Assembly: GCA_027604185.1 (NCBI GenBank)
Contig: JADGKB010000117.1
Coordinates: 1 to 39,826, forward strand
Direction of reading: 5' to 3'
DNA from: Boothiomyces macroporosus
Taxonomy: Eukaryota; Chytridiomycota; Chytridiomycetes; Rhizophydiales; Terramycetaceae
DNA length: 39,826 bases
Part shown: piece by piece, positions 923 to 38,568 of the stretch
Layout of the letters: each line of letters opens with the position of its first letter
Numbering within the stretch: the first letter of the stretch is position 1
Position numbers and translations under genes: made by a program
Notes under the pieces: generated by a model
Database searches by the model: none
The model's input: only the letters and a program-made list of their open reading frames with translations
Told to the model about the DNA's origin: nothing

Positions 923-3900
923 ATGAATCAACTCCTGAATGAAAAGTATGAAAGTAAAGTACTCAAATATATGAAGAAAAAGAAGATTTCAGAGTGGACG
1001 GTCCATCATGCAATGCACATATATGGACCACCTTCTAGGTCATTCGCTGAATTCATTTCTGCTTCCTCCAACTTGTGTATAGATGATAAAAAAAAGTTTT
1101 GTTTAATTGGATCAACAGAGGGTCTAATCAAATTGCCTGCTGCAAAGGTACTGGAACTTATATTGGAGAAAGAAAAGCTATTTCAAAAAATAAACGAGTA
1201 TGGGGAGAAGCTCTCTTCATACATGGTAGAAAACAATATTACGACTTGGCCTCAAAAAGAAGCCTTTAGAGTGATTGGCAGGCCTCCCCAAAAGATTTCT
1301 AGTTTTATTCAGCAAATTCCTGGTGTTTCAATCAATGCCAACGAAGACTTGGTGATTGTTCCTCTTACTACAAAGCAACTGAATGATCAATATGTCAAGA
1401 ATATAGTTGATTATATGATAGAAAATCGTATGGAATCAATTTCATTTGAACATTTGGAAAGTCAGTTTGGTCTTGCCGTGAAAGCTATAAAATCAGCACT
1501 CCGTCGTTCTAATCAGCTCTCAATTGATTCACAAAATCAAGTGTATTTATGCCTCGAGTCTCCAGAGGTTGTTAGTGAACAAGATACCGAATCTATCAAG
1601 GATGCTGGTTCAGCCATCCACGATACAGATGTTCCGGATCACATCACAGTGAATGCAGTAACTGTGGAAAATAATTGTACAACAGCTGGTGGAGCCAATC
1701 CAAAGAGCTACTATGGAATGCGTATTTTGGACTACATGAAATCAAATAATTTGAAAAAAGTGGATGTAAATCAAGTACTTACAGTCTTGGGAAAACCACC
1801 TGGAAAGTTACGTGCTGCTGTCAAGTCAATTGACGAACTCTCTATAAATTCAACCAATGAAATTGTTTTTCATAGGAACGACACTTCAGATTCTGAACAC
1901 TCTGTATTTTCTGATAGACAGTCCCAAATTAGTTACGCGACGGTGCAATCTGATTTCCATACCAATTCTGAGTTTTCAGAGATAGAAATATCAGATAAAG
2001 GATCAAACCCTAGATCAGACACCAACTTTGTTGAAATCAAGATAAATGAAAAGACAGAAAAGCAATCAAAACAGCTACCTGAATCATTAAGTAAGATTCA
2101 GGCCCTTAAAAAAGCAAATCAAGTTATCCAGCATATGATTGTAAATAAGAAGAAAGAGATCTTTCCTATTTCTTTGGAGAGGAAACTTGGGATAGCAACT
2201 GATAAACTTGACCAGGTAATTGCTGTTAGCCCTCGATTAGATTTCAGCCGTCAAGGGTCTGTGGTGATTGATCACCAAAACATAGTATCTAAGGTATTAT
2301 AAATTCTAACAATAGAGCTCTACCGTTGAGTTGAAAAAATCCATACTAGTCGATAATTTTAGTGTAATTGATTCGGATGAAAAGCTTTTGGCATTCAAAG
2401 AATACTTTAGACGTCAAATTCATCTTGAATATGCCTCAATCAGCATTATTTACAAGATTCAGCGAAAGAGATATGATTTTTCAATAATTCAAGTTGCATT
2501 TCAAGTTGGTGAAGATATCCACACAGTATTATTTGACTTGGCAATTGTTAGGCGGTCTCTTCAAGAAGTTTTTTCAGAAATATTTACTGATATTACGTTT
2601 ATATGTCATGATGGAAGAATGCTCAAGTTTTTAATGAAGCAATCAATGGATATCGATTTAAATCGATTGGTGGATACTCAAATTGTTTTGGAGATTCTAA
2701 CTGGAAACCCATTTACAACTTTGGAAAAATTCATTGAGGACTATGCACTCTCAAATCTTGAAGATTCAGAAAAACAAAAAATGGACATTTCTACCCAGAT
2801 GACAATTTTACTCCTAAAAGCCTATACAACCTTGGTTAACAGCCATCCCAAAGAATCTGAGCTTGAATGGGAGTACCACACCGACAATGCTTTGAACTGC
2901 GTTCATTCAGCTGATGCAAGGTATTACCCAATGGCGTTTAACCATGATTTTACTATGAGCAGGTCAACTTTAATACCTGTATCTTCTAGATCATTTATTC
3001 AAACAAATGAGTTGTTTGAGCTGGATGATATTGCTGGGATACTTCCATCGGAAATCATGGAAGCTTTGCATTCATTGGATCTTAGTACTGCAAGAGATTT
3101 GGCGTTGGATGTTGGCCGACCTCCTCGTCTATTTACCAGGGAATCAAGCAAGTTTTTCATGCCTGAAGATTATGCCCTTACTGCGGATACTATCCAGAGT
3201 ATTTGCTCAAAGCTAATTTTTGATAGTGGTAATCGTGCGGTATTGGATGGCAGTTTGCACCGCATAAGCGCATTCAGAGACCTGGAAAAGAATGTGTACG
3301 GTTTGACAGTTCGACTTGGCAGATTCGTCAAAGGCGTGTCCACAATCATCTCTGATCTTTTGCACTCTGACAAGAGCATCTTGTTCCTTGGACCGCCTGG
3401 AACCGGAAAAAGCACTTTTCTCAGGGACGCCATCCGGATCCTTTCCAAAGAAGACCACCATTTGATAGTGGTAGACACATCCAATGAACTGTGTGGCAAT
3501 GGCCACATTGTCCATCCTGAGCTGTATCCGGCAAGAAGAATGATGGTGCCTTCTCTGGCAGCTCAAAAGGACATCATGGTCGAGGCAGTGCAAAACCACA
3601 CACCAGATATTATCGTGATTGATGAAATTGGCCGATCAAATGAAGTAGGAGCCGCCTTGACGGTTAAGCGACGTGGAGTTCGCATCCTGGCTTCAGCGCA
3701 TGGTGAATTCCGAAAATTGATGGCCAACAAGGACTTGAATGGACTCTTGGGAGGGTTTCAAAGTGTTATCCTATCTGATAAAGCAGCAGGAGTAGGAAAT
3801 CAAAAGACTGTTACCGAAAGATGTGGAGAGCCAGTATTTGATGCAGTCATTCAATTGCACAAAAGTGTCCCGGGTTTAGTTACGGTAATTGATAATGTAG

Positions 3901-4001
3901 CAGCGGCTGTTGATTGTGTGTTAACCCGTAAACACGTTCCAGTGCAGCACCGAAAAATGGGGTCAGAGTTTGAAGTTTTTGTGAGATTTGACTCCATGTA
4001 A
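923..4001 (+). CDS. Five winged-helix-like repeats + degenerate 3'-5' exonuclease + SpoIIIAA/Ycf45 ATPase
   Basis: Joined as 923-2293 and 2316-4001; removing the 22-nt intron 2294-2315 joins two frames in phase 0, giving 1018 residues. Residues 1-457 hold five copies of a repeat of about 55 residues (starts near 10, 94, 160, 266 and 393) of the type helix-YM-helix-(I/L)GxPP-helix-LSIN-strand, which looks like a winged helix, perhaps OST-HTH/LOTUS-like. Residues about 465-640 resemble the RNase D/EXD1 exonuclease fold (ICHDGRMLKFL, LVDTQIVLEIL), but the first acidic DxE motif is missing, so it is probably not catalytic. Residues about 730-1018 are the ATPase, with Walker A near 816 and Walker B near 890. 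This ATPase family is typical of cyanobacteria and plastids, so a transferred origin is plausible. A nucleic-acid-binding role is inference. The stop overlaps AATAAA (4000-4005). Confidence 0.8.
2294..2315 (+). other. 22-nt spliceosomal intron fusing two frames
   Basis: GTATT at the 5' end, CTAAC branch-like element and AATAG at the 3' end. Exon 1 ends on codon 457 (phase 0) and exon 2 opens AGC TCT ACC. Without splicing, translation stops at 2300-2302 and the exonuclease-ATPase half has no ATG start. Confidence 0.8.
3219..3880 (+). repeat. Direct repeat, copy 2 (conversion-like tract)
   Basis: Partner of bases 1-662 (offset 3218). It covers the N-terminal three quarters of the ATPase domain including Walker A and B, and ends sharply inside codons for the segment after the VPGLVT motif. 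Confidence 0.95.
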
Positions 4002-4412
4002 TAAATCCTGGGTTAACTGCCCGTCAATTTATAACAATATTGAACAATTTGTGAAGGTGATTAAAGACTAAGCTAAAATGGTAATTGAAGTGATCTGAAA
4101 TTCCTAGAAGATCTATTAGGAGTGTCTACACGCAGGGGTCTAATGTACAATAACCAATGTGAATTCCCCACCATTCATCTTGAGTGATTTTTGTACCAAA
4201 TTAAATTGAAACAAAACCAGATTGGGGTTATGAAATCCAGATATTTGTTTAACATTTTAGACAGATTGAATGAATTTATAACCATAGATACTCCTGCAAT
4301 GAACCCTTTTTTGTGCAGTGAGTAGCCCATCTGTCTGTCTGTTAGGCTCTTTTGGTGGTCACCACAAAAAGGATGGATGTGACTGGAACAGTTTGCCCTT
4401 TGAATTTGACCA
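4002..4412 (+). other. Intergenic, no gene seen
   Basis: 411 bp between the ATPase gene and the hexosaminidase. It has the AATAAA of the upstream gene at its start. I see no RNA gene or repeat. An open frame on the minus strand (4175-4558) runs into the hexosaminidase and is probably chance. Confidence 0.6.
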
Positions 4413-6194: not shown

Positions 6195-10671
<4,477 letters not shown>

Positions 10672-11139
10672 ACATGGTCAGCTAATTTCCCTGTTTATAG
10701 TCAAGTTTGAATGTGCCTTTAAGAGACATTTTGGCTGGCGAATCGTTTGAAGCTACCAATTACGATCTCCGTCGCTATCCGAAATAGTCGCGAGTGCAGC
10801 GATCAAGACCCTTTATTTGCGGTACTCGAATTCACTAATTAAAGGCCTCAGTCAAAGAAGCTTTAAAGCCGAGCATTCCGAAAAAGACACTAAAAGGTTG
10901 GCTTTAAAATCAAATGGCAGAATGGATGGAACAAGCTGTATATTAGGAATAGCCATGAGTAGGATACTATTCATTTGTAGTAATATAGTTACATTTTTAA
11001 TGTGTTGCCGCTTCCCGAATTGGGAACAGTGAAGCAAAGTAAAGGCTACCGAATGAATATACAGACATCATTTGACCTCATACCACCCGTAAAAGTCCTT
11101 GAAAAAAGTTTAAAAGGAAAGGCAATATTTCACGCTTTA
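10672..11139 (+). other. Intergenic, 5' region of the amylase
   Basis: 468 bp. An in-frame ATG at 11053 lies upstream of the signal-peptide ATG at 11140. No RNA gene, repeat or clear TATA box was recognised. Confidence 0.5.
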
Positions 11140-13044: not shown

Positions 13045-15365
13045 GTCACTTAGAATCCAGGTTTCTTTCAATGGCAGGCAGGTTTTTAATGTCCTACCGA
13101 CATTAACCATCACCCTTCGCTTGAAATCTTCTGCTTCCGACTCTACACTCCAAGATTTGTCTTTGGCATGTATTGTAACAAGAGCTTCGTCATTATCAAC
13201 CTTCACCTTCCACCTGAGTTCTGGCTCCTCGGCTTCCATTTTTTCTACATGTTCTTCCCCAAATTGGAGACCCAAGAAACGAGGAATAATATCGGCTAAG
13301 CTGTGAATCTTTTCTGGTAGTGGCTTGTAGTCTTTTGGATAGCCAGCTTTGGGTTTGCTTTCATCCTTTTCCTGTTTAACTGGGGTATTATCAATTCCTT
13401 CTTCTGAAGTATGGGAATGATGATGATGTGTGTGATCTGACTTTGTTGCTAAAGTTAGAAGGCGGGGCTACCTTTTACCGATGCAGGACTGGAATCGGCT
13501 TGTAATATAACAACCAATGCAGAATCAGCAATCATATCATTGATTGGATGGCTTTCCCATTCCAAGAATATCTTTTGTTTCTCTCCTGGTATCAAGGTGA
13601 CTGCTCCAAAGATCTTGTAATTTCCCTCCTTTGTTTGTTCTAATTGCCCAAACATTTGTTCTAAATGCCACTTGATTAAACCAATTGGAGCATGGGAAAC
13701 AACAGATTGCTTTTGGATAACAGGCACGGTAACCAACTCGGTAAACTCAACCAGTTGAGATGGAGCAATAAGTTGAAAGGTAAAATCTTTTTGAACCAAC
13801 ACCCCTTTTACTATTGCGTCTTCAACTGGGGCTTCAACTGCAAGCTCTCCTATGACTTTGGCTGTTTTTTCACCTCTAAAGTGCAATTCCACAGTTTCAC
13901 AATTTCGGGGAGTGTAAATCTGCAGAGGGATTTCTTTTTCTGCATATCTGCTCTGCAATGCACTGCGCAATCTTCCCATTTCGTTGGATTCGCCATGTAC
14001 CAAAATCTACATTAAAAATGATTACCAAATTTTTGGATCCTACATCCTGAATAAACTCTGAATTTTCCTTGTAGTCTACATGAGCGGAGAACGAAATGTA
14101 ATCCACAGAAAGATTGAGTGGTAGTTTTCCACCATTCATGGATTCAAATTCCTCTGGTTCTGTTAAGATTTCTTTTCCCAAAGTTCCTTCCAACACATAT
14201 CCAGGAATAATAACTCCATTCCTTTTATCTGAACACCACAGCTCAAGCAGCTCACGGGATAATCCGCTTTGAAGCATACCTGGAGATGCCATCATTACAC
14301 AAGGGCCAACATCATCGAAATGCGAAATACTCTTTAAATTTGAAATGTGTTTAAATTGAAATGGGTTTGTAGTTTTGGCGATTTCTCTAATTCTGGCATT
14401 CATCATGTTTGTATAAGTTTGAAACACCTGTCTTTAGACTAAGCTTACAGTCATACACTTTTTAGCCAGAGAACTAGCGTAATATATAGGAACATCATGC
14501 AAGTCAGGATGTGTCTGCCAGTATTCATCCAGAATGAGCAATAGTTCTTGTGCCCTTCCAAGTGCAAACACTGGTAATAAACATCTGCCCCCACGCTTGA
14601 CAATGGTATGCACTATTCTAGTAAATCTCGTTTCTCTATCAAATCTGGGTTCGTGAGACTGAACTCCATAAGTAGATTCGCAAATCAACACTTCTGGAAC
14701 AATGTTTGGAGGCTTTTCTGCAGCCATTAAATGTCTATCTTCTTCTCTAGAATAGTCCCCAGTGTAGAGTATTTTCACACCGGCAATTTCAATCAAAAAC
14801 ATACAAGCTCCCTAGAATTACAATGAGATATACCTAAATATAAACAGTTTATTACCAATACATGCCCGGCACTCCAAGCAGAAAATTTGATACCTCCAAC
14901 TTCAACTTCCTGGTGATAATCAATCACATTGATCCGTTCAAAAGATCTCGCCAAGTCGTTTTCATCATACAGCTGATCTTCCGGAGATAATGAACTGATT
15001 TTGACATAATCCGAAAGTAGCCATTTGTAGATTGCTTTTGTGGGGTGAGTCATGTATACTTTTCCTCTGAATGCTGTTTTTTCCATCAAATACGGAACAC
15101 CAGCAGCATGATCAACATGGAAATGAGTAACTAGTAGTAAATCAATGGCTGACAGATCCACTTCATCTATAAATGGCAGCGCTGACAATCCGGTATACGA
15201 TGGGTGCAGCCCACAGTCCAGCATGATTGTTTTGCCTTTGAATTGGAGCAAGATACAACTTCGTCCTACTTCATTCCCTGCCCCAAGCGGCGTCACTTTA
15301 AGTATATCGTTTTCGTCTGCTACTGGCACTTCTGAAGGCGGTTCTTTTCTCTTTAAACTTGCCAT
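13042..15365 (-). CDS. CPSF3: CPSF73/Ysh1 pre-mRNA 3'-end endonuclease
   Basis: Exons 15365-14856, 14811-14449, 14427-14026, 14006-13472 and 13448-13042 give 738 residues. Introns are 14855-14834 plus 14833-14812 (abutting, 22 + 22), 14448-14428 (21), 14025-14007 (19) and 13471-13449 (23). This is the metallo-beta-lactamase/beta-CASP nuclease that cuts pre-mRNA at the poly(A) site in the nuclear cleavage complex. It shows [12 protein letters not shown], the zinc motif HFHVDH (81-86), [59 protein letters not shown] and [13 protein letters not shown]. All junctions restore these motifs. The C-terminal CPSF73-100 domain begins after a His-rich insert (DHTHHHHSH) encoded at the start of the last exon. 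The stop TAA overlaps AATAAA. Confidence 0.95.
14812..14855 (-). other. Two abutting introns, 22 + 22 nt, no exon between
   Basis: On the minus strand 14855-14834 (GTAATAAAC...ATTTAG) is followed directly by 14833-14812 (GTATATCTC...TTCTAG). Removal joins CATGTATTG to GGAGCTTGT, giving the invariant CPSF73 sequence GHVLGACMF in phase 0. The two introns are not obviously similar to each other. Confidence 0.8.
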
Positions 15366-15636: not shown

Positions 15637-16160
15637 ATGTCAAAAAACAAATACAGCAAGGGCAAAAAGTCAGACATCCCGATAGGAGGAACGGATCAGC
15701 AATGGTATGTGTATATTTATATTCAGGGTCGATCGGGTTGCATTTGAAATGAAAACGCAACGACTATGGGCGAAAAAATGGCATGCCCTGACAGACCCAA
15801 CGCTATTTAACGAACAGGAAACAGTTAAATATCCTCAGAAACAAAAGGTATCAATGCCATCTAAAACAGTCAACTAAATGGAGCACATGGAGCGTATTGA
15901 ATCCCCCAGATAGGTCCATCATAGTCCACAACGCTCCTCCGCCTCCTCAACCTTTTTTTAAAATTACAGGGAACAGAGATAATTTTCTTGCGAGAGAGAA
16001 ATACTCGCCGGAGCGCTGTAAGCAATTTGGTGAAATTAATACTCCAAAGACAATCAAGGAAAACAAAAACCTCACAAAGTCATATCCAGCCACATCTAAT
16101 TTAGAATACGGTTGGTTGTGGCAAGGAAAGCCTTTAGAAATTTATGGGAATCGAAGATAA
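15637..16160 (+). CDS. Probable ciliary microtubule inner protein, CIMIP1 (C20orf85/LLC1)-like
   Basis: Exons 15637-15704, 15727-15847 and 15870-16160 give 159 residues; introns 15705-15726 and 15848-15869 are 22 nt each. Two blocks match the CIMIP1/LLC1 family, which lines the inside of axonemal doublet microtubules. The N-terminal block DQQWVDRVAFEMKTQRLW, followed by AKKWHALTDP, fits the family pattern Q-x-x-W-x(2)-R-x(3)-E ... W-x(3)-W-x(2)-LT-x-P. The C-terminal YPATSNLEYGWLW fits the PxTT...GW motif. A Pro-rich central segment (NAPPPPQPFF) lies between. It is divergent from CPSF73, whose ATG is 271 bp away. AATAAA at 16203-16208 is the likely poly(A) signal. If correct, the organism builds a motile flagellum. 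I compared motifs from memory only. Confidence 0.6.
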
Positions 16161-18110: not shown

Positions 18111-18176
18111 TATTGCTTTATTCAGTACTGGTAGTCAAATTTCATTTTCAATAGATATCTAATATCAGTGTTTAAA

Positions 18177-20242
18177 TTACTTGATTTTGATTTGAGATAC
18201 GTCGTACACAATGTATTCATTGTACTGCAGGTAACTTTGATCTAGTTTGGCATCAATTCCTTTCCCACATGGAACTGTTACGCCATCCAACTCTACAAAT
18301 TCTTTAGGGTCTGGAACAGTTCTTCCTAACCCTTTGGTAGAGTGAGCGTTTACAGCTTTCAGCCTGTCGCCAGCATTATAGTCGGCACTGTATAGCTCAT
18401 TGTGTTTACCTAATGCTACTTCGCAAAGCAAAAGAATCCCGGTATTGCTTTGACGAGAAGTGCAACAGTAGTTTGCAGACTTTGAAACCATATCGGCAAA
18501 GTACACACCTTTTCCAAACATCTAGCATTAAATCAATTATACATATCCAGTAACTGGAGCTTCTGGTGGTGCAATTCTAAGCCCTTGGGAAAGAATACCA
18601 ACAAAGTTGGTGAGTCTGCTTCCATGCCACAATAGCATTTTGTTGGAGTGATATTCTTTGCCAACATTGTTAAACTTTTCAGCTTCTTCATCTCTGTGCA
18701 ATTCAAAGGCATCCAAAATTTCCAATTTATAGGCATTGTGGGTCTTACCATGGGTATTTTGAGTGTACTTTTTCAGAATATTGAATGTCTTTGATTTCTT
18801 GTCGATTGGTTTCAAATCTCTCTTCAATGAATGATAGTTTCTGTCAGAAGGATGCTCAGTAACCTCTTTATCCATATTCTTTAACAAAGTAGTAGCAATT
18901 TCAATATCAGCCAATGCTTCCACCATTTCAATTTTCCTAGCCAATGCATCGTCACTGTTTATCACTGGTGGAACGCTAAACCCAAATGAATGGGGAATAA
19001 TAGTATAGAATTCAGAACTCAGATCTTGAAGCTTGCTGTGTTTGTTTTTTGAATTTTCACGCAGTACCTCACCAATTTTAGTTAAAACATTGTAACCCTT
19101 TTGGATATGGGCTTTTGAAAGCTTTCCAAGAGGCATCTTTTTGGCATCATACCCGATTTCCATCATTTGTTGCTCCATCATCTTTGTATTGAAAATTAAA
19201 TCAATCAAATCTTTGACTGGCTTTTCAAGCTTTGAATCAGGAATCTTTTTCTCCACTTTAACAGTTTCTTCTGCAGGATCCTAATTATCAGTACAAGTTT
19301 ACAGGTTCAACTTCTTCTTCGAAATCTCTTTCAATCAAAAAGTACTTTCCTGGGTACTTTACGAAGTTGGCTCTGTTATCCCAGTGATTTTTGGTCTTGT
19401 CATGAAATTTCTTTTGAAAGGTAGCGATCGCGGATGGTAAGGATGGACAGAGCTCGAGCTTGTTTTGCCCATCAACGCCTACTCTTCCCCACCTTGTCCA
19501 TACATAGACAGCGCCAGAAGTGTCGTTTTGTAGCAACTGCAAGACATAGAATTTGTTGTTGTTGTTTTTGATGTCTGTTTGATTCAGCATTACATCTTGA
19601 TTAGCTTAACGTACCATAAACATTCGCATTATCCTCATAAACGTGCATTTGGTATCCGCCCGGACACAAATGATCAACGATTGCGCTTCCCTTCTTAATC
19701 ACTTTGACAATCTTTTCTTTATCTTCAGGCTCATCATCTTTGTCTTTTTTTTCTTTATCTTCAGGCTCAGCGTCTTTGTCCTTCTTTTCTTCAGTCTTGG
19801 CCTTCTTCTTTGGAGGCTGGTTTTCTTCATTCTCTTCTGGATCGCTTCCGTCCATATCTACATCGGTAGAAGAGACGTCCTTGTCGGTCAGCAAGTGCTT
19901 TGAGTCATCAACCAAGACTTTGTCTTTGATTGAATCATTGATAAAGTCGGTAGAAACAACCGGGATGCTTTTTTGGAACGCATTCTTAATCTTGGCTTGG
20001 ACCGGATCAACGAGCTCAGCCTTATCAACAACCAAGTAATTCACCTTTTGTTATATTTGATTTACTTTTGCCGATAGAGAAGTAAGCACCTTTCCACCGT
20101 GGGAAGAAATTGAGCTTTTCAAATCGGATTTAGCGACAGAGTTCGAGAGCACGAATACTTTGGATTCAAATAACTGTGGGTCCGAGTTGCCAGAGTCAAC
20201 ATTGCTAGTGTTGTTGTTTGCATTGCGAGATGACCTTCTCAT
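18177..20242 (-). CDS. PARP: Poly(ADP-ribose) polymerase, BRCT-WGR-PRD-ART
   Basis: Exons 20242-20066, 20044-19615, 19595-19303, 19280-18543 and 18521-18177 give 660 residues; introns are 21, 19, 22 and 21 nt. It transfers ADP-ribose from NAD+ to proteins in the nucleus in response to DNA breaks. Domains: N-terminal BRCT (about 15-110), a Lys/Glu/Asp-rich linker with PPKKKAK as a likely nuclear signal (about 140-180), WGR (YVWTRWGRVG near 237), the helical regulatory domain (LIDLIFNTKMMEQQM), and the ART fold. The H-Y-E triad is complete: H519 (LLWHGS), Y553 (GVYFADM) and E648 (QYNEYIVYD). It lacks the zinc fingers of animal PARP1, as in other fungi. The frame stays open upstream of 20242 to about 20380 but has no ATG there. 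Confidence 0.95.
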
Positions 20243-20587: not shown

Positions 20588-21138
20588 ATGGGTCAACAGC
20601 TCAGCACATCCAATATCCCACCAGAAGATCTACCATTCCTCCTAGAAATATCCAACTGTACTCTTGTGTTAACCTAGTCTCTGAAAAAGACCTGGACAAG
20701 CTCTACTTGCGATTCCAACACCTGGACAAACAAAAAACCGGCTATTTGACCAGCAAAGAACTTCAATTGCCCGAATTAGCAGTCAATCCTTTAGCCGACA
20801 GGATCACTAGTGTAATATTTGAACACGGCAAGTTGGATTTCAAGAAATTTGTCGAGACGATTCAAATATTTAGTAAAAATGCCAAGCGAGAAACCAAATT
20901 GGAGTTTGCATTCAAGGTATACGACGTAGACTGCGACGGATTCATTTCTTATTCAGATCTGTTCCAAATTATCCGAGCTATGGCCGGGAATTCGCTTAGC
21001 GACCTGCAGGTTGGTAAAATAGTCGAGGACACCATCAATGAGAATGACCAGGATAATGATGGTATGCTCAAGCTCGACGAGTTCAAGCGAGCCTTATTCG
21101 ACACAGACATTGATAGTTTCTTGACAATAAAATTGTAA
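20588..21138 (+). CDS. Calcineurin B homologous protein (CHP-like), EF-hand
   Basis: Exons 20588-20657 and 20678-21138 (20-nt intron) give 176 residues. The N-terminus MGQQLSTS fits N-myristoylation. LPELAVNPLADRI followed by a shortened, non-canonical second EF loop (FEHGKLDFKKF) matches CHP proteins better than calcineurin B, whose second loop is a full DxDGNGEVDF. EF3 (DVDCDGFISYSD) and EF4 (NDQDNDGMLKLDE) look able to bind Ca2+. CHPs bind plasma-membrane Na+/H+ exchangers and can inhibit calcineurin; the partner here is unknown. A divergent calcineurin B is the main alternative. AATAAA (21126-21131) lies inside the last codons, 5 bp before the stop. Confidence 0.8.
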
Positions 21139-21169
21139 ACCACATCGGGAATTTTACCTTTTTTTTGAA

Positions 21170-21864: not shown

Positions 21865-23671
21865 TTATTGACAATCATTCTTGCAAGGTATTATTTCAAA
21901 AGCGTCTTCTTTTGAAATAACTGGGATATACTTTGGTTGCTGAGGTCCTTGATAAACAATTTTCAAAGACTCATCTGTTTCAATTGGTCGAGGGGAAAAT
22001 ACAACTCTAATATTTGAATGCAAATATAAACGGCTCTTTAAAGTCATTTGGAAATTCAAATGAATTGCAAAGCGAAGTCTGTCTGGAGATACTTGTGCAG
22101 ACTTTGAGATGGCGTAGGATTTTTGACGGATGAACGTCTTTGAACACGCCGGCATATCTTTGAAATCATAGGGTATCAAAAATACTTTGATTGCAGTGCA
22201 GTTGGGGTTTTTGATCATCTAATTTTAGTAAAAGTTACAATCTGAAGCTGTCCTTTAAGTGGCAAGCGATAACCTGCCGAGTCTTTCAACTCGATATTTC
22301 CTACATACGGGGTAGCGAAGTTATCTTGAATATCGTAAAAGAATGCTGGAAAGTTTATGACAGCATGAGGCGGGCATTTTAAACTTGGTTTACATTTGCC
22401 CATGGCTAAAACACCAATATCAGCTACAAACTGTATAGGTTTAGAAGGTGAGGTAGATAGTCTACCAATGAGTATAGATTCTTCATATGATCCAATGAAA
22501 CTGCCATTCATTTCAGTAATGCTAACTCTGCGGGATTGTTTTATGATAATACTCTGTTTCATTGTTTCTGGCTTTCGAACTAGAATATCTCTTTTCGGAA
22601 TGGGCTCGGATGAATCTAAAGTAAATGGTGTTGGGTCTATATCAGCTCAATATTACCTTCGCAGTCATTTTCTTCTTGCTTGAAGCTACTCGATAGCCTT
22701 GATTGCTTTTGTTTGCAATCACTTTTCAACAACTTGTTAAAATACCCCATAGCTTTCTTGTGTGTGGTTGGTGTAGGATATGGACTGGTCGGACAAGTCT
22801 TTTTCATTTCTTTCTTTAGTTCTCCATCAGAGTTTAGTAATTCGAATGGCGGTTCAGATACCATGTCGCCATTGGGTGACCATTCCACAGGAACTTTTTG
22901 TTTCGGTATCGTTTCCAAGTTAGAGTCATACACGACTGTAACTGACAAATTCCCAATGGGCCCAGAGCCTGATCTGAATTTGAAGACATCCAACTGCGCT
23001 TTCGCACAAAATCCATCGCTTGAAATCTTATTTTCACTTTCGGAACACGATGAAGTGTGGATTAGCGTATTTCCATTCGCGAACGACAGTCTAATGTAAA
23101 TAAAGCAAGTACGAATATCTCAATGACGATCGATCAATCTTGCCTTCAATCAGAGCATTTCCAAGCGGAAGCGTTCGAATTTTGGAATACAGGGATTGGG
23201 AGAGCAGTATCAAATCCGAATAGTCGTTCAATGATTCCTCTTGTAGATTTTCTCGGCTATTTTTTCTATTTATCGTATACTCCATTTGCTTTATGGAATC
23301 AAAGGATATACTAAGTTAGATATATCGTACTTTGAGTGGAAAGAGAGAATCCATCGTTCTAATAACACCCCCTTATCTGATAAAATATCCAAATGAATAG
23401 GGACGGCGTTTGCCCAAAAGTCTCGGTCCAGCCCTAGCGAGTACAGTTCCAATTGATTAAACCCAATGGGTTTCCGGGATAGTGGGTCTGATTTCGTCCT
23501 CGAATGCTTGGAGTCAAACAATACTCCTATCGACTCTGATTTTGTTCTGTTGCGCTCTTGCTTCAGCGATATTTTGGAGTGTATGCGCTGTCTTAAAACC
23601 GTCTCTCCAATCTTGGAAATAAACTCTTTTGATATCAGCAGCTCCAGTTTCTCTCTGTTGGTTATATGCAT
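21865..23671 (-). CDS. Atos (ATOSA/ATOSB, FAM214) family protein
   Basis: Exons 23671-23331, 23310-23113, 23090-22657, 22636-22239 and 22218-21865 give 574 residues; introns are 20, 22, 20 and 20 nt. The N-terminal third has LLERWILSFHS and DLILLSQSLYSKIRTLPL, seen in Atos and reminiscent of Atg13 HORMA regions. The central Atos domain has GSFIGSYEESILIGRLS and TPYVGNIEL. The C-terminal domain has LPLKGQLQIMIKNPN, VFLIPYDFKDMP, TFIRQKSY and SRLYLHSNIRVVF. Animal Atos proteins act in the nucleus as transcriptional regulators; fungal homologues are mostly uncharacterised. The stop TAA sits inside AATAAA (21869-21864). ATG 23671 is the first in frame and precedes the conserved start KLELLISKEF. 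Confidence 0.88.
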
Positions 23672-25107: not shown

Positions 25108-28100
25108 TTATTGCAGCGACTCTGAAAGATAAGTCGTATTGGCATTTTCCCATGACACTCCAAATGCATGTCTAACACAAGCAATTGCTAAATAGGACAT
25201 TGTTCCGGCTGGACCATCTTGACGCAAATCAAAAAATATTCTTCTTGCTAAACGCTGGTTTCGCTCATATGACATGTCTGCTCCTACTCTTGTAATAACA
25301 GTAGGTCTAGCTTCAAAATCTGCATGCAATCCTTTTTCCTTTGGTGGAACCTCGCTAATTATTCTGGATGCGTTTTGAACTGCCTCCAATGACACTGGTG
25401 TGTTTTCATCACTTGTAACTGGAGCATTCTTTATAATCGGAGTGCTGACAACAGACTGAACCGCTTGGTGAATAATCGGCGCTTTGTGAATCAATGGCGT
25501 GACAACATTTTGGTTTGATTTTTCCGAAATCCATTTGTCCCAGAAAAGACTAATTGCTTCATTGATTAATTCAATTAAATTGATTGTTCTTCCGCTCAAA
25601 GATAATTCTGGGTTTCTCTCTTCAATCCTGGAAACAACTACTAAACATTCGGTTGCAATTTGGTGTTCAGCAGGGTCGACAATGTTATCCAACAAATTTT
25701 CAACTTGCAGCGCTACGATTAGTCTTTGGTTTACCGAAATTCAATTCTTCAGGAGTACTTTCACTGATTGTAGGATGGGAATGAAGAGTTGCATTGTAAA
25801 CCACAATGGCAGAAGTCTTACTGAGCACTTTCCATACTTTTGGATAGAAATCGAGAGGAACACGATTGAGAGCACCGTCATTACGTCTTCTTCTGAGCCA
25901 CTTTCCTTGACAAGGCAAGATATTTGCAATGCTAGCTCTTCTACATTCTGAGCTTGTACCATTCTCTGCCAAATTAATGGTCTGGGAGATTTTGTCTGTT
26001 GGGCCCATTCCCGACTTGCGGTGGCATTCAGGAACAGAACCTTTGCTTGCACCCTTTGTACCAATCATACACCAAGAATCTCTGAAATGTACATCTCGAA
26101 TTAGACTTGAGCCCAAAGATTCACAAGCAGCTTTGGCGCTTTCAGTTAATTTTTCTGCAAAGTCATCCTTTCCAGCCAACACTACAATGATACCATCATC
26201 GAGAGAGTTTACAGATTGTGCAAACTTTTCGCTCTAAGAATTAACAAAGTTTTACATCAATTTCAGAAGAGAAGATGTCGTAATTTCCAAAATCAATAAT
26301 CGAGCCATCAATCGAATCAACCGCAACCAAGTTAAGGCCTCGCCCAACTATTAATGGTACGTTCACATGCTCTTCCCCTCGTGTAATATCGATTTCTGCA
26401 AAATTTCCTGCATCAAAGCCAGCTGAGCGCACTTCGATTTTCATGGTATCATTTGTTTCTTTCTTTTGCTTTCCTTCCTCCAAGGTAAATCCTTTTGATC
26501 TTGGACTTGTATTACCAGAAGAAATTCTAATACTTTCAACTTGATCGTGCGCAATGAGAACTTGCTGTAGTAAGGATTTGACTTCATAAGGTGAAAGCTT
26601 TGTTAATATAGATAGTACCTGCATTAAATGCTCAATTGCATCTTCTTCATTGCATTTGAGGGTTCTAGATAATTCTTCTCTCATGGCAATAACGAAAAAG
26701 TGGATTCTAATTCGCATGATGCCCGAAAATACTCCTGGAGAACCCCTAACCAACGAACCGAGATAGGTAATGATTTCTTGGATTAACGGCGCTTCTCTGA
26801 TATCGCTCGTGCTGCCGTTAGAGAATAAATTACCAATTGTCATAGATAATTTGAGCCAGTGCTGCAGGGTTTTTTGGGGTGTTGATAAAGTATTCCTTTG
26901 GACGCAAACCGATGGTTACTGGTTTTTGACGAATCAACAAATCTGCTAAATTGCTGGTCAAAGAGTTGACAGTCTTTCTCAAAATACCTGCCGCTTGACG
27001 GACCACACTCCACAACTTGGCGTGCATAGCTTTCCAGTAAACTTCATCTAGCAATACATCTAGCGAGGCTACCCCAGGAACAACAAACGAACCTCCGTGG
27101 CATGAATACAAGTAATGAAGCAAGTCAATTTGGTCATATAAATTGCTACAGCTGAATAGCATATCAATTGCTTGAGGGGTTTGTGCGGGGTTTCCTAATG
27201 TCAAAGAGACAGGCTGGGCATTTGGAGTTTCATCATGATCTGGTGATTCGGATCTCATTCCTGGCCCCAAAATGTTATCGTCTTTAAGCTCTTCGTCTAT
27301 TAGAGAAAGCTCTTCCATATCAGGATGGTAGCCCAAGGATTTTGCAAGAGGGCTTTTTAATGGCGGAGCATCAATAATCGATCTAGTTCTGGAAGGAATT
27401 CCTTCACCCCGAACCGGCGATTTGGCAGTGGAAGCAGTGTTGATTTTCAACTTTTGTTGAGCAACTTCCTCTACAGTGTGTTCCCTTAAAATTTCATCCC
27501 AATCTTCTTTTGCATCTACGCTTCTGTTTACCAAAAAGTCCAAGGATTCAATGCAAGCCGTATTGATCATTTCACTAAGACGACCAACTCGCACTCTTGT
27601 TCCATTACAAATTCCTGAAGACCCAATAGAAATCAAGAAATTGAGTAAATTCTTTTTGCCATTGTCCCTTTCATCGTAGTCCATATTCCCGACCATTTGA
27701 TGGGTAAGCATGACCACCATAGTTGGTCGTCCATTTGACATCCATAGATTTCTAACTGAAGAAATTTCTTGTTCAAACAACGAAACCAAATAGTTGTTGT
27801 CACTCACAATATACTAAATTAATATGATTTACAAATTCTTCTCTATCCATGAAATGAGGCAAGAATGCATACAATTGGCCTTGGCATCTGTAGATTTTAC
27901 AAGTACTGAGAGATCCCATTGGACGATCAGGTCTACCACTCAACCCAAGTTTTTGATTCACACCCAATAATGCATAGGCGTCTCTTAAACATGAAGGTTT
28001 TGAGATGGCGATTGGGGAGCAATTTTCCTTTGTATATGTCTCTAGTCCATAAGTCAAAAGCTTGGCTTGCAGCTCTTTAGATTCCGCCAACAAGACAATT

Positions 28101-29599
28101 TGAACTATGGTATCAGATGTGTTGACAGAATGTAGATTGCTATATCGCCTTCCCAAAGGATCAATATCTGCAACGGATAGGTAGTTATCGTAGATCAAAT
28201 TTCCAAGAATGTATAGAGATTGGGCCCATACCAACGGGATATTTTGGTTTGGAACTCTTTCTTGGGATCCGTGATTTTTTCTTTCTGCTTCAATCAATTC
28301 CTTTGGGACAATGTATAATTCGGGTACAAGTCGCATGTTGAATTCCTCTTCTTCCTCCTCATCCCCGGTTTCTTTGGACTTTATTGCCAATGTTTTGGAA
28401 TCTACAAGCAATGGATCCATCAACTTTCTGTAATGCTCAACTTGTTCCGGGTTGTTGTTGAAGATGCCATCCAGGATCAAATAGGTGAAGAAAAGCGGCC
28501 ATTCAGACTCTACATTTTCAAAAATCTTCAATTCGTGAGGTTCATAGTAAAGTCTCGTTAACGAAAAAATACCTTCCGTGATCTTCCAATACAGTTTGAT
28601 GTCCATCTCGCAAAAACCGCTTACAGCCGTATTTGCCACCCAACTTTTTGATAATATTTTTCCTGGTTAGGTCTGTTAACTCAACGTCACCGACGGCAAA
28701 TGCAGGGAAGGAGATAACGGCCAACAGAGCTGCATCGATTTCCTTGGATGGGGATTCACGAGGTAACGCAGAATGAAGAGTGGTATAGTTTCTTGCAATT
28801 TCATCCGGCAACACATGAATAACAGAAGACGGCCCACCCCTGCTGCCAAAGAGATTGACACCGTTAATTGCCTGTAATGCAGCAACTACCATACCGATAC
28901 TAGAACAATTCAATTCTGGCTGACCGTGGTTCATCTATATTAATCCATTTCAACCTTATTTCCTCTTTCCCAAATACCATAATCCGGTGTTCTGTAGCCT
29001 CTTTCAATGTAAAATACAAGATTTTGAATAAACTGAACCTCGTCCATGGTGTAGATGATATGTAACCCACTAACGGTCATCTGTGCAAGCATCAAGAGAA
29101 AGATACTCGTTGCATCTATTTGCAAGTGGCCCCATTGATTATCTCCGACGACTGTATCCCCAGTTTGCGTGTTGTATTTTGCATGGAGGGCTTGATCCAA
29201 TGCTTGGGTGCCTTTAAACTTTTCCACCTTATGGGCTTGGCGCATCATCGCGAATAATAGCCCTCGCATACATTTGATGGTGGCATGTTCAAGTTCATCT
29301 AGGTCAAGTTTTAGATACAGGCACGCCCTTGATCGTCGTCCAATCTTCTGTAAGCTAGCCCCAAACCCCAAACGGCCAAGATAGAGTAAACGTTATCCCT
29401 TGCCATTAATTATGAAATACCTCACCCAAGCGTCTCTGTAGTCGCCATGGGTGGTTATCGCAACTGAGGCGGGGATCTAAAGTAAGTCAGGATCTACCAA
29501 CCCACTAGCTGCATTCTGTCTTGCAAGAATGATTCTCGTGACTTCCTGGTAATATTTTTCCAAATCATCCTGCGCTTTCCTTAATTTTTTTGACGCCAT
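25108..29599 (-). CDS. Phosphorylase kinase regulatory subunit alpha/beta with inserted ILEI/PANDER domain
   Basis: Ten exons give 1434 residues. Introns: 29497-29477, 29420-29399, 29318-29299, 28954-28935, 28572-28554, 27832-27814, 26833-26812, 26255-26234, 25734-25713 (19-22 nt). The glucoamylase-like N domain is nearly unbroken: [97 protein letters not shown] and [12 protein letters not shown]. The C-terminal PHK motif [15 protein letters not shown] lies at about 1179. Between them, at about 1010-1145, is an ILEI/FAM3 (PANDER) domain: [56 protein letters not shown] activates glycogen phosphorylase; animal subunits have a disordered regulatory loop in this place. The end lacks the animal farnesylated CaaX-like tail. 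The stop overlaps AATAAA. Confidence 0.93.
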
Positions 29600-30230: not shown

Positions 30231-31555
30231 ATGGAGATGATTTTAAACTATCAAAAACTTTTGAAAAAAATGAGTGAACCTGATTCTCCTACCACCACTG
30301 CACTGTCATCTGCGCTCTCTTCAATTACCTTGGAAGCAAAAAAGAAATACCGCCCAGCAACAGAATGTGTATTCGTAGAAAATACAGGAGTTCAAGATAA
30401 TTACAACGCCTCGTCCATGCCAATTTATCAGACTGCAACATTCAAACAGACGAATGCCAGTGAAATGGGTGAATACGATTATTCGAGATCAGGAAATCCT
30501 ACTCGTACCTTTGTGGAGTCGCATTTGGCAAAATTGATGAAGGCCGAACGAGCACTAGTCACCAGTAGTGGAATGACTGCTTTGGATATAATATTGCGAT
30601 TGGTAAAGAGCGAGCAGGAAATAGTAGCTGGCGATGATATTTATGGGGGAACGAACCGATTACTGACCTTTTTCAAGACTCAAAACAACGTGATGGTTCA
30701 CCATGTAGATACTACCGATCCAAGATGCGTTGATCAAGTACTCAACGAAAAGACACGACTAGTTTTACTGGAAACACCAACTAACCCTCTGATCAAGATT
30801 GTTGATATAATCGAAATATGCAAAATGGTAAGGGCGAAATGCCCAGACTGTTTGGTTGTCGTTGATAACACCATGATGTCGCCTTACCTTCAGAACCCAC
30901 TGGAGCTTGGAGCAGATATCGTATATCATTCAGGAACCAAATATCTTTCAGGTCATCACGACTTGATGTGCGGAGTCGTTGGAGTTAAAAATGCAGAATT
31001 GGGCAAAGTAAATCCTTTTTAATTTAGCAAATGTACTTTGTCGTTAATGCTACTGGGGTTGGTTTAGCACCCTTTGATTGCTTCTTGTTGATGAGAGGAA
31101 TCAAGACACTTTCTGTTCGTATTGAAAGACAGCAAGAGTCGGCAATGAAAATCGCACAGTTTTTAGAAGGTGTTGGGTTTAAAGTTCGCTATCCTGGGCT
31201 AAAGTCTCACCCTCAGTATGACTTGCACCACAAAATGGCAAGAGGATCTGGGGCAGTGCTCTCATTTGAAACTGGAGATGTGATCAAGAGCGAAGCGATT
31301 GTTGAATCTACAAGACTTTGGCTAATATCTGTCAGTTTTGGGTGTGTAAATTCTTTGATTAGGTTGCAAATTATTAATACTAGTATGCCATGCAAGATGT
31401 CACATGCTTCCATTCCAGAAAAAGTTAGAAAGGAGAGAAACCTGCCAGAAGATTTAATTCGGTTGTGTGTAGGTATCGAGGATGTGGATGATTTACTAGA
31501 AGACCTGGAAAATGCCCTAATATCTGCCGGATTCATTACCAATAAACAACTGTAA
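30231..31555 (+). CDS. Cystathionine beta-lyase (PLP, Cys/Met metabolism)
   Basis: Exons 30231-31007, 31028-31362 and 31384-31555 give 427 residues; introns are 20 and 21 nt. It is a fold-type I PLP enzyme of trans-sulfuration: cystathionine to homocysteine, pyruvate and ammonia. Motifs are YDYSRSGNPTR, SSGMTALD, GDDIYGGTNRL, LLETPTNPL, VVVDNTMMSPYLQNP and the lysine motif YHSGTKYLSGHHD. The second half (FDCFLLMRGIKTLSVRIERQ, LPEDLIRLCVGIEDVDDL) follows STR3/MetC-type lyases. The second intron (31363-31383) has no stop and keeps the frame, so unspliced translation would add seven residues in a conserved block. An alternative start is ATG 30270. AATAAA (31541-31546) is within the last codons. 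Cystathionine gamma-lyase is the alternative activity. Confidence 0.9.
31363..31383 (+). other. In-frame, stop-free 21-nt intron
   Basis: Begins GTTGCAAA and ends AATACTAG. Removal joins TTGATTAG to TATGCCATGC and restores FGCVNSLISMPCKMSHASIP, the conserved lyase sequence. Retention inserts seven residues without frameshift. Confidence 0.75.
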
Positions 31556-31636: not shown

Positions 31637-32605
31637 TCAGAAGGAAACCATCTTGGTGGAGTCTTCATGATCAACCCAGCCTTCATTGCGAATGAACCCA
31701 ATCATGTTCAAAATACCACCGCAGTTCATTCCGATGGTGCACAACACAATCATCCAATCTTGATATATGTCAAAGACACTCATTAGGATATATGGAGTGG
31801 TGCCAGACCATTGGATAAAGTAATTGAGAACAAATGTCATGATTTTCCTTGCTGCTACTTCCAACAGCCTTTCTCTCTTGTAGTTTCTTTGTGGTTTAGC
31901 AGTGGTAGAGACGGTGTACTTGTCAAATACAGAAATGGATTCTCTGTTGGTTGATCCGGACTCCAATTCGCGGACTGCATTTTGTGCATTCATTAGAACG
32001 ATCCAGACTTTGACGGCAAAAAAGAAAGTTAGCAAGAATAGAGTAACTTCGACTAGAATGACTAGTATTTGGATGGTTTTGTTGTTTGCAAACATTCTAA
32101 GGTTAGATTATATGTACTCTTCGTAGCACCAGTACCATGAGGAACCAGCACTTGGTATAGTAACGAAACCCATCAAAATCGCAAAAATGGCGACAGTGGA
32201 TAATAACTTCCAATCCCCAGCCCCCAAATCTATGTGTTTTCCTAAAACAATCGTTGAAAAGGTGATAAATGTTACTGAGCAAACGAGCATCATGTTTGAA
32301 AATCCAGAAATGCTGACAGCAGTTGCTGTAATTTTACACATTGGCTCATCCCAGTTCCTGCTAAAGATAACATCATGCAACTGATCCGTCATTAAGGATA
32401 CATAGAGCATTAAATCTGTGATGGCGATATAGAATGGGAAACGCAGTGTGATGGGGCGCTTGCCTAAGCGAACCCACCTGGATACAATTCTGACAATGAT
32501 ATATATAGAGCAGATTGCAGAGAGTTGCATTATAGTAAATCCAACTCCATAAACTAACCCTCGTGCGTCTTGGCTGTAGTTTGGCCGACTGGTGCTGCTC
32601 GACAT
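31637..32605 (-). CDS. Seven-transmembrane receptor, cAMP-receptor-like (class E)
   Basis: Exons 32605-32118 and 32096-31637 (21-nt intron, branch CTAAC) give 315 residues. Seven hydrophobic segments are visible: LVYGVGFTIMQLSAICSIYI; FPFYIAITDLMLYVSL; ATAVSISGFSNMMLVCSVTF; LLSTVAIFAILMGFVTI; IQILVILVEVTLFLLTFFFA; IMTFVLNYFIQWSGTTPYIL; IVLCTIGMNCGGILNMIGF. The last continues into FIRNEGW, as in Dictyostelium cAR and fungal cAR-like GPCRs. The N-terminus is short with a sequon (NYS). I chose ATG 32605 (MSSSTSRPN) as the start; an in-frame ATG at 32755 would add 50 residues. The ligand is unknown. A minus-strand AATAAA lies about 45 bp after the stop. Confidence 0.75.
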
Positions 32606-36644: not shown

Positions 36645-36669
36645 TAAATTGCTAGTTTAAAAATGTCTT

Positions 36670-37402
36670 TTATTTCTTTTCTTGCTTTGGTTCTTCCTTT
36701 GGCTTTTCTCCCAACTTTGGAACAGGTTTTCCAGATCCAGTTTGTTCCCATGGGCTTTGGTATTCAAACAATCTGAATGATTGGGCTGCGATTAAAATCT
36801 ATTTACCTAATTCAAGTGGTTCGGCAACTACTCTCTTTTTTGAATCGTCGTATCGTACTTCAACGTAGCCAGTTAGTGGGAAATCTTTTCTTAATGGATA
36901 TCCTATGGTCAGTACAAATAAAACCTTCAAATCCGTAATCAGTCAAGATTCTTCGCAAGTCTGGGTGTCCAGTGAAAAACACTCCGTACATATCATAAAC
37001 TTCTCGTTCCATCCAATTCGCTCCTTTGAAAATATCGGTAACAGATGGAACAGGAGATATTTCGCTAGCATATGTTTTGACAATAATTCTGGTATTGTAA
37101 GGAATACTTAATAAACAATAAACAAGCTCGAATCTGTTTTGTTTAGATGGATAGTCAACGCCGGCGATATCTACTAACTGAGTGAATTGTGTTGCGGAGT
37201 GGAGCTTGAGGAATTGCAGAGTGGGAATGAGCGCTGAAGGACCAACATTCAAAACCAGTTCGTCCTTGTAGACGGAAAATTGCTGTATATACTTTGGAAT
37301 ACATTTTGAAATATAATCTCCTAGCTTTTGATGAGCCAAGTTGTCTGCAGTTGCAAATGTACGTAATTTTTGAAATGCAAACTTTGAGCGATTGAAAAAC
37401 AT
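36670..37402 (-). CDS. NDUFS3: NADH:ubiquinone oxidoreductase 30-kDa subunit (complex I), mitochondrial
   Basis: Exons 37402-36925, 36902-36807 and 36785-36670 give 229 residues; introns are 22 and 21 nt. An N-terminal mitochondrial presequence ([19 protein letters not shown]) precedes the NuoC domain: [69 protein letters not shown] and [10 protein letters not shown]. The Lys/Glu/Pro-rich C-terminus follows [11 protein letters not shown]. It forms part of the peripheral arm that carries electrons to ubiquinone. Its presence shows that complex I is retained, unlike in Rozella and microsporidia. The stop TAA is part of AATAAA. Confidence 0.97.
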
Positions 37403-37746: not shown

Positions 37747-37787
37747 TAAACACCTTGGTAACCTTTTTTTTCTTTTCGCTGTCTTTG

Positions 37788-38042
37788 ATGGAGGAGAAAG
37801 TTGTAGTTCATCAAACGATAAAGAGAGTCGCCCAAGAGCTGAGCATCCCAATCACACCCCAAGCAATACTAGCACTGACGGATATAACTATCGAAAAGTC
37901 CAGTCTGATTGCAAAGGACTTGGAGCATTTCGCAAAGCATGGGAAGCGACAGACAGTAAATTCAGATGATATAAAATTGCTATGTAGACATAATCCAGAT
38001 CTGGTAAATAATATTAATACAGTGGGAACTAATTTCAAATAA
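37788..38042 (+). CDS. CENPS: Histone-fold protein CENP-S/MHF1
   Basis: 84 residues from ATG 37788; an in-frame upstream frame from 37755 has no conserved content. It is a small histone fold: HQTIKRVAQELSIPITPQAI, ALTDITIEKSSLIAKDLEHF and AKHGKRQTVNSDDIKLLCRHN. The pattern DLExFAKHxKRxTxNxxDVKLLxR is diagnostic of CENP-S, which forms a tetramer with CENP-X and acts at kinetochores and with FANCM at stalled forks. It begins 41 bp after the Asterix stop on the same strand. The stop overlaps AATAAA (38038-38043). Confidence 0.92.
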   Translation: MEEKVVVHQTIKRVAQELSIPITPQAILALTDITIEKSSLIAKDLEHFAKHGKRQTVNSDDIKLLCRHNPDLVNNINTVGTNFK

Positions 38043-38087
38043 AGAATCGTAATCCTGTGCATGACTCAATTTTCTAGCATAATATTT

Positions 38088-38568
38088 ATGATTAAAAAAG
38101 GAGATCGAATCCCCACTGCAGAGCTGTTCGTATCCCTTAATCCAATTGATATCGACTCACCGGCGAGTCCCAAATTGATTTCCTCTGATGAGCTGTTCAA
38201 AGGCAATGCAGTGATATTTGGTAAACTGTTGTAATGTAGGTGTTGGAGAACCCTTTTCGCCTTTGCATTCTCATGTTTCGCTCTACCCCTCTTACGACTT
38301 TTTACACTTGCATTTCTACAACAAAGGGTACACTGTTTGTTGCTTATCTTGTAGCGACCTCTTGGAAATGGACGCTTGGGCTAAGGATTACAACCCTAGA
38401 AAGAAAGTACAAATGGTATCTGATCCTGACAAATCCTTTGTTAAAAAGTTGGGTGTGCCAGACTCTGTTCAAAACTTTGCTTTGGTTGTCAAAGATGGCA
38501 TTGTTGATTATGTCACTATGAACAAGGAAGACTGCAGAGCGGAAAACGTACTGAATAAAGTTGCTTAG
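38088..38568 (+). CDS. Prx5-like (redoxin) protein lacking the peroxidatic Cys
   Basis: Exons 38088-38220 and 38240-38568 (19-nt intron) give 153 residues. The fold is atypical two-Cys peroxiredoxin: MIKKGDRIPTAELFV, NAVIFGVGEPFSP, DLLEMDAWAKDY, KVQMVSDPDKSFVKKLGVP and FALVVKDGIVDYV. In active Prx5 the loop reads PGAFTPxCS. Here it is GEPFSPLHS, so the peroxidatic Cys is His and the catalytic Thr is Ser. Other Cys are present in GYTVCCLSCSD. Thus classic peroxidase chemistry is unlikely unless another Cys has taken over. The sequence is otherwise well conserved, which argues against a decayed gene. Confidence 0.85.

Follow-up and report, generated by a model that had tools for sequence, protein, structure and literature searches.

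What are the segments of 19 to 23 nucleotides (nt) that interrupt one reading frame after another between positions 2294 and 38239 of the 39,826-base stretch of DNA analysed here (the window), contig C117 of the Boothiomyces macroporosus assembly G000 (216 contigs; 15,203,306 bases)? Judged from sequence comparison, they are, with very little doubt, spliceosomal introns of the ordinary U2 type, extraordinary in size and almost constant in length, carried in the nuclear genome of B. macroporosus, and they would be removed from pre-mRNA. The genus lives in soil as a saprotroph, and the window belongs to the nuclear genome of a chytrid, hence a true fungus (Chytridiomycota, Rhizophydiales, Terramycetaceae), not of the 'fungus-like organism' supposed in an earlier note that had been made from the letters alone. 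In the homolog search, the PARP2 gene model matched a deposited B. macroporosus protein at 99% identity over 98% of its length, and the ABC transporter model matched another at 99% identity over the best 48%; after these deposited self matches, the next-best ones were Boothiomyces sp. and Terramyces proteins (77–92% identical).

The curated models of the window harbored 46 introns in 13 genes, all 19–23 nt in length (19 nt, n=7; 20 nt, n=10; 21 nt, n=12; 22 nt, n=16; 23 nt, n=1), with GT donors in 46/46 (GTA in 43/46) and acceptors AG in 44/46 and TG in 2/46. The curation started from 41 gene-finder introns of 19–23 nt, from which three were removed and to which eight were added: two stacked pairs, two GT–TG introns, and two 21-nt introns without an in-frame stop (26598–26618 and 31363–31383), these last two being detected by homology alone. 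The earlier note had placed 43 such introns in 12 genes over 2294..38239 (19 nt, 6; 20 nt, 10; 21 nt, 11; 22 nt, 15; 23 nt, 1), and its assertion that they are real and uniform in size was borne out by the sequence tests, both in the window and in a sample taken from 20 other contigs.

That sample comprised 20 × 10 kb (C1–C20:10001–20000, the 20 largest contigs; 200 kb outside the window), and lengths were assessed there with a two-strand gene model that drew its codon usage from long open reading frames (ORFs), recognized only GT..AG gaps, and had a flat length prior of 10–300 nt; a finder handling one strand at a time had chained shadow frames into false long introns and was replaced by this joint model. 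In the window, the flat-prior finder called 43 introns, 13 of them at 19–22 nt, with every other single length occurring at most twice and with many false intergenic joins; when donor and acceptor were self-trained and half of the prior was left flat, 41/56 fell at 19–23 nt. In the sample, 122 of 241 GT..AG gaps lay at 19–22 nt (19 nt, 23; 20 nt, 57; 21 nt, 29; 22 nt, 13) versus 6–12 gaps for each of five decoy dinucleotide pairs, and no longer intron class appeared there, since GT..AG gaps of at least 26 nt numbered 104 versus 165–190 for the decoys. The outcome named by the earlier note as refuting, a distribution extending well above 25 nt, was thus not seen in the 20-contig sample. The trained finder, run on window plus sample (240 kb, 1.6% of the assembly), gave 384 introns, of which 346 were at 17–25 nt and 340 at 19–22 nt (77, 138, 88, and 37, respectively), with a mode of 20 nt and only four shorter than 19 nt; extrapolation from this 1.6% suggests some twenty thousand introns in the whole genome. 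An intron-score scan that ignored reading frame failed to separate introns from noise (1100 matches vs 1448 in reversed DNA).

The introns of window and sample displayed a common anatomy: a GTA donor (third base A in 91%) followed by A/T-rich sequence with G at position 5 in only 18%, a YAG acceptor with T at −3 in 66%, and a TTAAY-like motif. TRAY was present in 266/346 introns, the A being followed by 5 or 6 nt in 221 occurrences, and this A is the putative branch point. In the 251/343 introns with TRAY in the last ten bases, the distance from donor G to this A was 13 nt (n=100), 14 nt (n=113), 15 nt (n=23), or 16–18 nt (n=15), and none was below 13 nt, with 11 and 12 nt being allowed for 19-nt introns; the spliceosome need not tolerate 'almost no distance' between donor and branch point, as the earlier note had put it. 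A 13-base span, the A itself, and a tail of 5 nt add up to 19 nt, the observed minimum. When all dinucleotides were allowed at equal penalty, 360/364 short introns still began with GT and 353/364 ended with AG; TG accounted for 7/11 non-AG acceptors, with a TG share among non-AG dinucleotides of 7.5% (P ~ 3e-6), giving a GT–TG class of about 2% of introns. The protein surrounding the TG introns in L015 (trans-sulfuration-type enzyme) and L019 (P450) aligned without gap, and the remaining TG model calls outside the window were two in L013 and one in L014 (6882).

Independent support came from homologous proteins, which were aligned with a spliced aligner ignorant of splice signals and charging a flat cost per gap, with a rerun giving a small GT/AG bonus for exact ends. 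For the phosphorylase kinase alpha/beta gene (PhK; minus strand), the motif-free alignments to three relatives gave ten gaps of identical lengths, 19–22 nt, with ends within a few bases and one shifted by 11: 25713..25734 (22 nt), 26234..26255 (22 nt), the stopless 26598..26618 (21 nt; the 11-nt shift arose with P0243 and was absent with the GT/AG bonus), 26812..26833 (22 nt), 27814..27832 (19 nt), 28554..28572 (19 nt), 28935..28954 (20 nt), 29299..29318 (20 nt), 29399..29420 (22 nt), and 29477..29497 (21 nt), each recovered with 3/3 relatives; P0242 and P0243 gave two and one additional short gaps, respectively, in unconserved parts.

The conserved parts of the ABCC transporter gene (plus strand) likewise gave gaps of 19–22 nt with up to four relatives. 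Gaps shared by 4/4 relatives were 6711..6730 (20 nt), the TG-ended 7856..7877 (22 nt), 9939..9959 (21 nt), 10171..10190 (20 nt), and 10479..10499 (21 nt); 6459..6480 (22 nt) was supported by the P0121 alignment, 7436..7454 (19 nt) by P0123 and P0124 without motifs and by P0126 with the GT/AG bonus, the TG-ended 7607..7626 (20 nt) by P0121, P0124, and P0126 (47 nt with P0123), and 9414..9434 (21 nt) by the same three (12 nt with P0123, which has an insertion there). An adjacent pair, 6871..6892 (22 nt) and 6893..6913 (21 nt), showed up against P0124 and P0126 as a single gap of 43 nt with an internal AG|GT, while P0121 and P0123 gave 232 and 55 nt at 6871–6913, where the models of both fail; long gaps with these two proteins occurred where their own models skip sequence. 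The PARP2 gene (minus strand) carried 18159..18180 (22 nt; P0016), 18522..18542 (21 nt; P0002, P0003, and P0016), 19281..19302 (22 nt; P0002 and P0016 in the motif-free run, with P0003 giving 25 nt), 19596..19614 (19 nt; P0002 and P0003), and 20045..20065 (21 nt; P0002 and P0003).

Some deposited models of this family are wrong at tiny introns: the deposited PARP2 model P0001 lacks VNYLVVDK at the 21-nt intron 20045..20065, and P0122 lacks about 76 residues between the two GT–TG introns of the window, the relatives retaining these residues in both cases; the deposited P0122 jumps from GRTGA to DTPDLQ. The models of P0121 (Boothiomyces sp. JEL0866) and P0123 (Terramyces) are probably wrong as well. 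Compared by hand, each had a net gain of 7 residues where B. macroporosus has an intron, and this insertion could back-translate, with degenerate codons, to a possible 21-nt GT..AG segment. P0037 (Globomyces sp. JEL0801) had, by hand, net 8- and 9-residue insertions relative to P0016, and these would fit 24 and 27 nt.

Alignment to solved-structure sequences ran without gap across the junctions of five further genes: CPSF3, NDUFS3, calcineurin B, peroxiredoxin (weak overall), and CENP-S. The CPSF3 gene (minus strand) carried 14007..14025 (19 nt) and 14428..14448 (21 nt), both gapless against human CPSF3, plus an adjacent pair seen in the same alignment, with the upstream member at 14834..14855 (22 nt) and the downstream one at 14812..14833 (22 nt); excising these 44 nt yielded AGHVLGACMF versus human AGHVLGAAMF. 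The others were 36786..36806 (21 nt) and 36903..36924 (22 nt) in NDUFS3 (complex I 30 kDa; minus strand), 20658..20677 (20 nt) in the calcineurin B gene (plus strand), 38004..38022 (19 nt) in the CENP-S gene (plus strand; its end near 38052 is a manual reading), and 38221..38239 (19 nt) in the peroxiredoxin-5-like gene (plus strand). In the cystathionine lyase-type gene (plus strand), 31008..31027 (20 nt) left no gap against 1ibj, and the stopless 31363..31383 (21 nt; position from the curated model) would, if unspliced, be a 7-residue insertion against it. Pfam LLC1 matched the spliced protein of the LLC1-family gene (plus strand) at 29.0 bits (cut-off 27.3) and spanned 15705..15726 (22 nt), with 15848..15869 (22 nt) being supported by the same match.

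For the remaining window introns, the basis was frame, either alone or combined with a domain in another part of the protein: 2294..2315 (22 nt, plus strand) in the AAA-ATPase gene; 22219..22238 (20 nt), 22637..22656 (20 nt), 23091..23112 (22 nt), and 23311..23330 (20 nt) in the ATOS-like gene (DUF4210; minus strand), whose model is open from 23671; 32097..32117 (21 nt, minus strand) in a predicted membrane-protein gene; and 13449..13471 (23 nt, minus strand) in CPSF3. Several candidates were discarded: the finder introns 4415–4434 and 13094–13113 were without support; 21269–21287 lay where DUF2985 was matched by the unspliced protein; 38328–38354 (27 nt) was open when retained and aligned to peroxiredoxins; 23488–23524 was not needed for the ATOS model to stay open from 23671; and 4318–4345, 21135–21188, 29617–29651, 37743–37825, 38049–38077, and gaps above 100 nt were intergenic or pre-start by manual reading.

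Outside the introns, window positions 1–783 and 3220–4001 repeated the ATPase part of the AAA gene almost identically at the DNA level, with divergence toward the 3′ end by eye, and 38595–39826 held a minus-strand ORF with a long repetitive region leaving the contig edge. The ABC transporter and alpha-amylase genes adjoin in Terramyces too, being fused in model P0123, and a Terramyces PhK protein came from a same-sized contig, so local order seems conserved (window 6195–13029 and 25108–29599).

Introns also directly adjoined one another. What looked like single introns of 43 and 44 nt in the window resolved into 22+21 nt (6871–6913) and 22+22 nt (14812–14855) with AG|GT between, and a third pair (23+22 nt) was found in a tyrosine aminotransferase gene, where the spliced protein was gapless against the human enzyme. 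A strict stacked-intron pattern, scanned over the whole genome with the reversed pattern as control, had 18 matches versus 0 reversed, and one with a 1-nt spacer; the 18 are not independent, the triples on C90 and C145 giving two overlapping matches each and two contig pairs sharing identical sequence, which leaves 14 distinct places, and they represent a floor, since the pattern misses the ABCC, CPSF3, and tyrosine aminotransferase pairs. A complete GTA donor directly followed the first AG in both pairs of the window and in L014, and did so by pattern construction in the 18 genome matches. Among the matches, those on C90 and C145 were read in their genes: C145 had a run of three introns within a PEX1-N domain, and C90:51643–51724 (L042) had four directly adjoining ones (20+21+21+20 nt) inside a MATH domain, gapless against USP7 at that point. 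Identical stacked introns occurred on different contigs (C1:393040 and C173:12122; C49:6398 and C100:7993), a hint that the assembly contains duplicated or allelic contigs.

A related arrangement separated introns by exons of only 3 nt. The pattern with a three-base spacer had 11 genome matches (0 reversed): nine with ACC or GCC on C103 and C133, and two with ATG elsewhere. The formin gene at C103:29901–33000 (L041, L044) had 48 modelled introns in 3.1 kb, its FH1 region being cut at many prolines, with 27 exons of 3 nt (25 ACC, 1 GCC, and 1 TCC) that came two to four at a time, flanked by exons of 21–30 nt. When this gene was spliced, its frame stayed open into a downstream FH2 domain of 325 bits, and the unspliced frames held 51–72 stops each. 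A second C103 gene, without a Pfam match, had 25 introns in 1.3 kb and 12 exons of 3 nt, and C133:32701–33354 (L046) had four, the contig ending within the polyproline array, so that such arrays may break assemblies. XCC, one in-frame proline codon, made up 42/43 of the 3-nt exons. The arrays would have grown as an intron and one codon were duplicated together.

The splicing machinery was sought in the genome as well. U6 (C59) and two U2 genes scored above the Rfam cut-off, U2 retaining GUGUAGUA and U6 retaining ACAGAGA, and a U1 candidate on C34 had the canonical 5′ end ATACTTACCTG; the two U2 small nuclear RNA (snRNA) genes, at C178:9607–9797 and C80:60682–60874, were divergent. Protein matches were found for U2AF65, SF1, Slu7, Prp18, and Isy1. 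The earlier note had proposed inspecting U2, U6, SF1, and U2AF for changes: the key boxes of the two RNAs were unchanged, and SF1 and U2AF65 were matched, sequence changes having been sought in the RNAs only. Slu7 and Prp18 are dispensable where branch and 3′ splice site are close, and might therefore have been lost; this was not borne out, as both were matched. Altogether 8/9 components sought were matched, two of them below cut-off and only nine being checked, which argues against a reduction as deep as that of mikrocytids but is no proof of a complete spliceosome.

Could the segments be something other than introns? DNA-level internal eliminated sequences, or translational bypass or frameshifting, would leave an identical frame-restoring signature; this explanation is highly improbable in view of the GT..AG ends, the branch-like motif near-fixed in place, the snRNAs and splicing proteins present, and the decoy signals, which give no such peak. 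That faulty gene models or sequencing errors produced the pattern, with gaps fitted to broken genes, is harder still to credit: deposited models do disagree in places (P0001 and P0122), but the residues at issue are carried by independent relatives, human proteins align gaplessly across the junctions, and the other contigs gave 122 gaps versus 6–12 in decoys. Several observations nevertheless weigh against uniform, ordinary splicing as set out above. In the alignments, the divergent N-terminus of the ABC protein yielded meaningless gaps with P0124 and P0126, and the PARP relatives added 24- and 60-nt gaps in a charged repetitive stretch. In the length data, the sample covers positions 10–20 kb of the 20 largest contigs and is thus non-random; the gene finders undercount stopless 21-nt introns, which escape ORF reasoning, so that their counts understate 21 nt; and 36/384 introns exceeded 25 nt, with three stacked pairs among the 15 listed (34–70 nt). 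Five sample gaps of 34–52 nt (L005 7307–7349, L006 1088–1139, L006 1304–1347, L011 7371–7407, and L018 7716–7749) were unexplained with all dinucleotides allowed and had no clean split in two; they may be real longer introns or model errors, and rare longer introns may exist, also in untranslated regions. The TG call L014 6882 sits in a doubtful gene fusion. As for the machinery, the U1 candidate scored 68.8 bits, below the Rfam 69.5, the U2AF65 match 230.7 bits, below the cut-off of 310.3, and RED_N was unmatched in the genome, a negative for which prokaryotic control genomes cannot separate absence from insensitivity; Smu1 and RED are reported as necessary for short introns in human (PMC6692369).

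Two narrower alternatives concern the arrays. Stacked segments of 43–45 nt might be single longer introns with a chance AGGT, since whole removal yields the identical protein and stwintrons of Xylariales are reported to be sometimes excised whole (PMC12403724); this is unlikely, because 3/3 homology-tested pairs (ABCC, CPSF3, and tyrosine aminotransferase) split at AG|GT into halves of 21–23 nt, exact adjacency gave 18 matches with 0 reversed and one with a 1-nt spacer, threes and fours exist, and GT..AG gaps of 26–60 nt show no excess over decoys. The 3-nt polyproline exons might themselves be absent from mRNA, the runs being removed whole or representing a decaying minisatellite. This deserves more attention and is still the less probable account: the low-complexity region is uncheckable by alignment, the C133 contig ends inside such a region, and the array model, with 98% of its prior on 17–25 nt, was strongly biased to short introns and could not freely choose longer ones; against this stand the 42/43 exons reading XCC as one in-frame proline codon, and the frame open into the 325-bit FH2 domain, compared with 51–72 stops in the unspliced 3.1-kb frames. 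On balance the evidence leans slightly toward an intron so self-contained that exon size has no lower limit, with introns stacked two, three, and four deep, 39 single-proline 3-nt exons, grouped two to four at a time between introns of about 21 nt, in the formin and the second polyproline gene, dozens of serial intron-defined splicing events within 1–2 kb, and a proline number that is possibly tunable.

The introns were compared with known systems of similar size, for which the earlier note named chlorarachniophyte nucleomorphs and heterotrich ciliates and omitted mikrocytids. Mikrocytos mackini has nuclear introns of 16–17 nt (224 predicted) and a spliceosome reduced to 17–19 proteins (PMC10245619): Mikrocytos and Boothiomyces share a nuclear location, an extremely narrow length range, and a short conserved sequence, but the mikrocytid is a rhizarian obligate parasite with shorter introns, 224 per genome versus 346 in 240 kb of Boothiomyces, whose 19–23 nt lie outside the mikrocytid range; stacked or 3-nt-exon arrays, found in Boothiomyces, are unmentioned for mikrocytids in the accessible part of PMC10245619. 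Stentor coeruleus, according to the accessible parts of PMC9505925 and PMC10245619, has introns of 15–16 nt, keeps all snRNAs, and has Slu7 and Prp18 listed as not identified; it resembles Boothiomyces as a free-living nuclear genome with uniform tiny introns, but is a ciliate with shorter ones (15–16 nt versus a mode of 20 nt), and Boothiomyces matches both proteins. The chlorarachniophyte nucleomorph introns (18–21 nt, more than 800; PMC10245619) are nearly equal in length range, but reside in the remnant nucleus of an algal endosymbiont, whereas the Boothiomyces ones reside in a 15.2 Mb fungal assembly, the best non-self protein matches of the window being from Boothiomyces sp. and Terramyces.

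Recursive splicing is a feature of very long introns. The stacked introns resemble it (PMC5126111) in that, on sequence, the acceptor of one intron runs straight into the donor of the next, leaving a zero-nt exon, but in Boothiomyces each partner measures about 21 nt and as many as four are consecutive. The [D1,2] stwintrons of Xylariales (PMC12403724) are likewise fungal intervening sequences of composite structure that are excised in consecutive reactions, but there the inner intron splits the outer donor between nucleotides one and two, whereas stacked Boothiomyces introns keep whole donors and acceptors. The features of U2-type introns, namely a GT donor and AG acceptor, a branch motif near the 3′ end, and U1 (candidate), U2, and U6 in the genome, were all seen at sequence level. 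No report of such introns in chytrids or other fungi was found in the open-licence literature searched: the accessible part of a fungal intron survey (PMC8476143) tabulates two Chytridiomycota and describes 63 bp in Cryptococcus as relatively short, and those of PMC13391722, PMC3569864, and PMC6733946 hold nothing bearing on such introns. Because mikrocytid introns of 16–17 nt were already known, the novelty lies in kingdom and host and not in size: the size class is known, the setting appears new within the open literature searched, and the stacking, the 3-nt exons, and the TG class would exceed a repeat of known cases.

Under the reading as nearly fixed-size U2-type introns, each intron would be recognized as one unit (intron definition), the 13-nt donor–branch span would be a physical minimum that, with the 5-nt tail, sets a floor near 19 nt, and the 3′ splice site would be picked chiefly for lying close to the branch, so that TG is sometimes tolerated. 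Exon recognition would then be unnecessary, so introns could stack with zero- or three-nt exons between them, stacked ones presumably being excised one after another. Since this fungus retains matches to most of the components sought, extreme reduction of the spliceosome may be unnecessary for ultrashort introns. The sharp 13-nt lower edge from donor to putative branch is a measurable limit, the stacked introns and 3-nt exons offer a direct test of intron definition and of the sequence in which introns are removed, and tiny introns that can be stacked would, if true, test the minimal size of a splicing unit.

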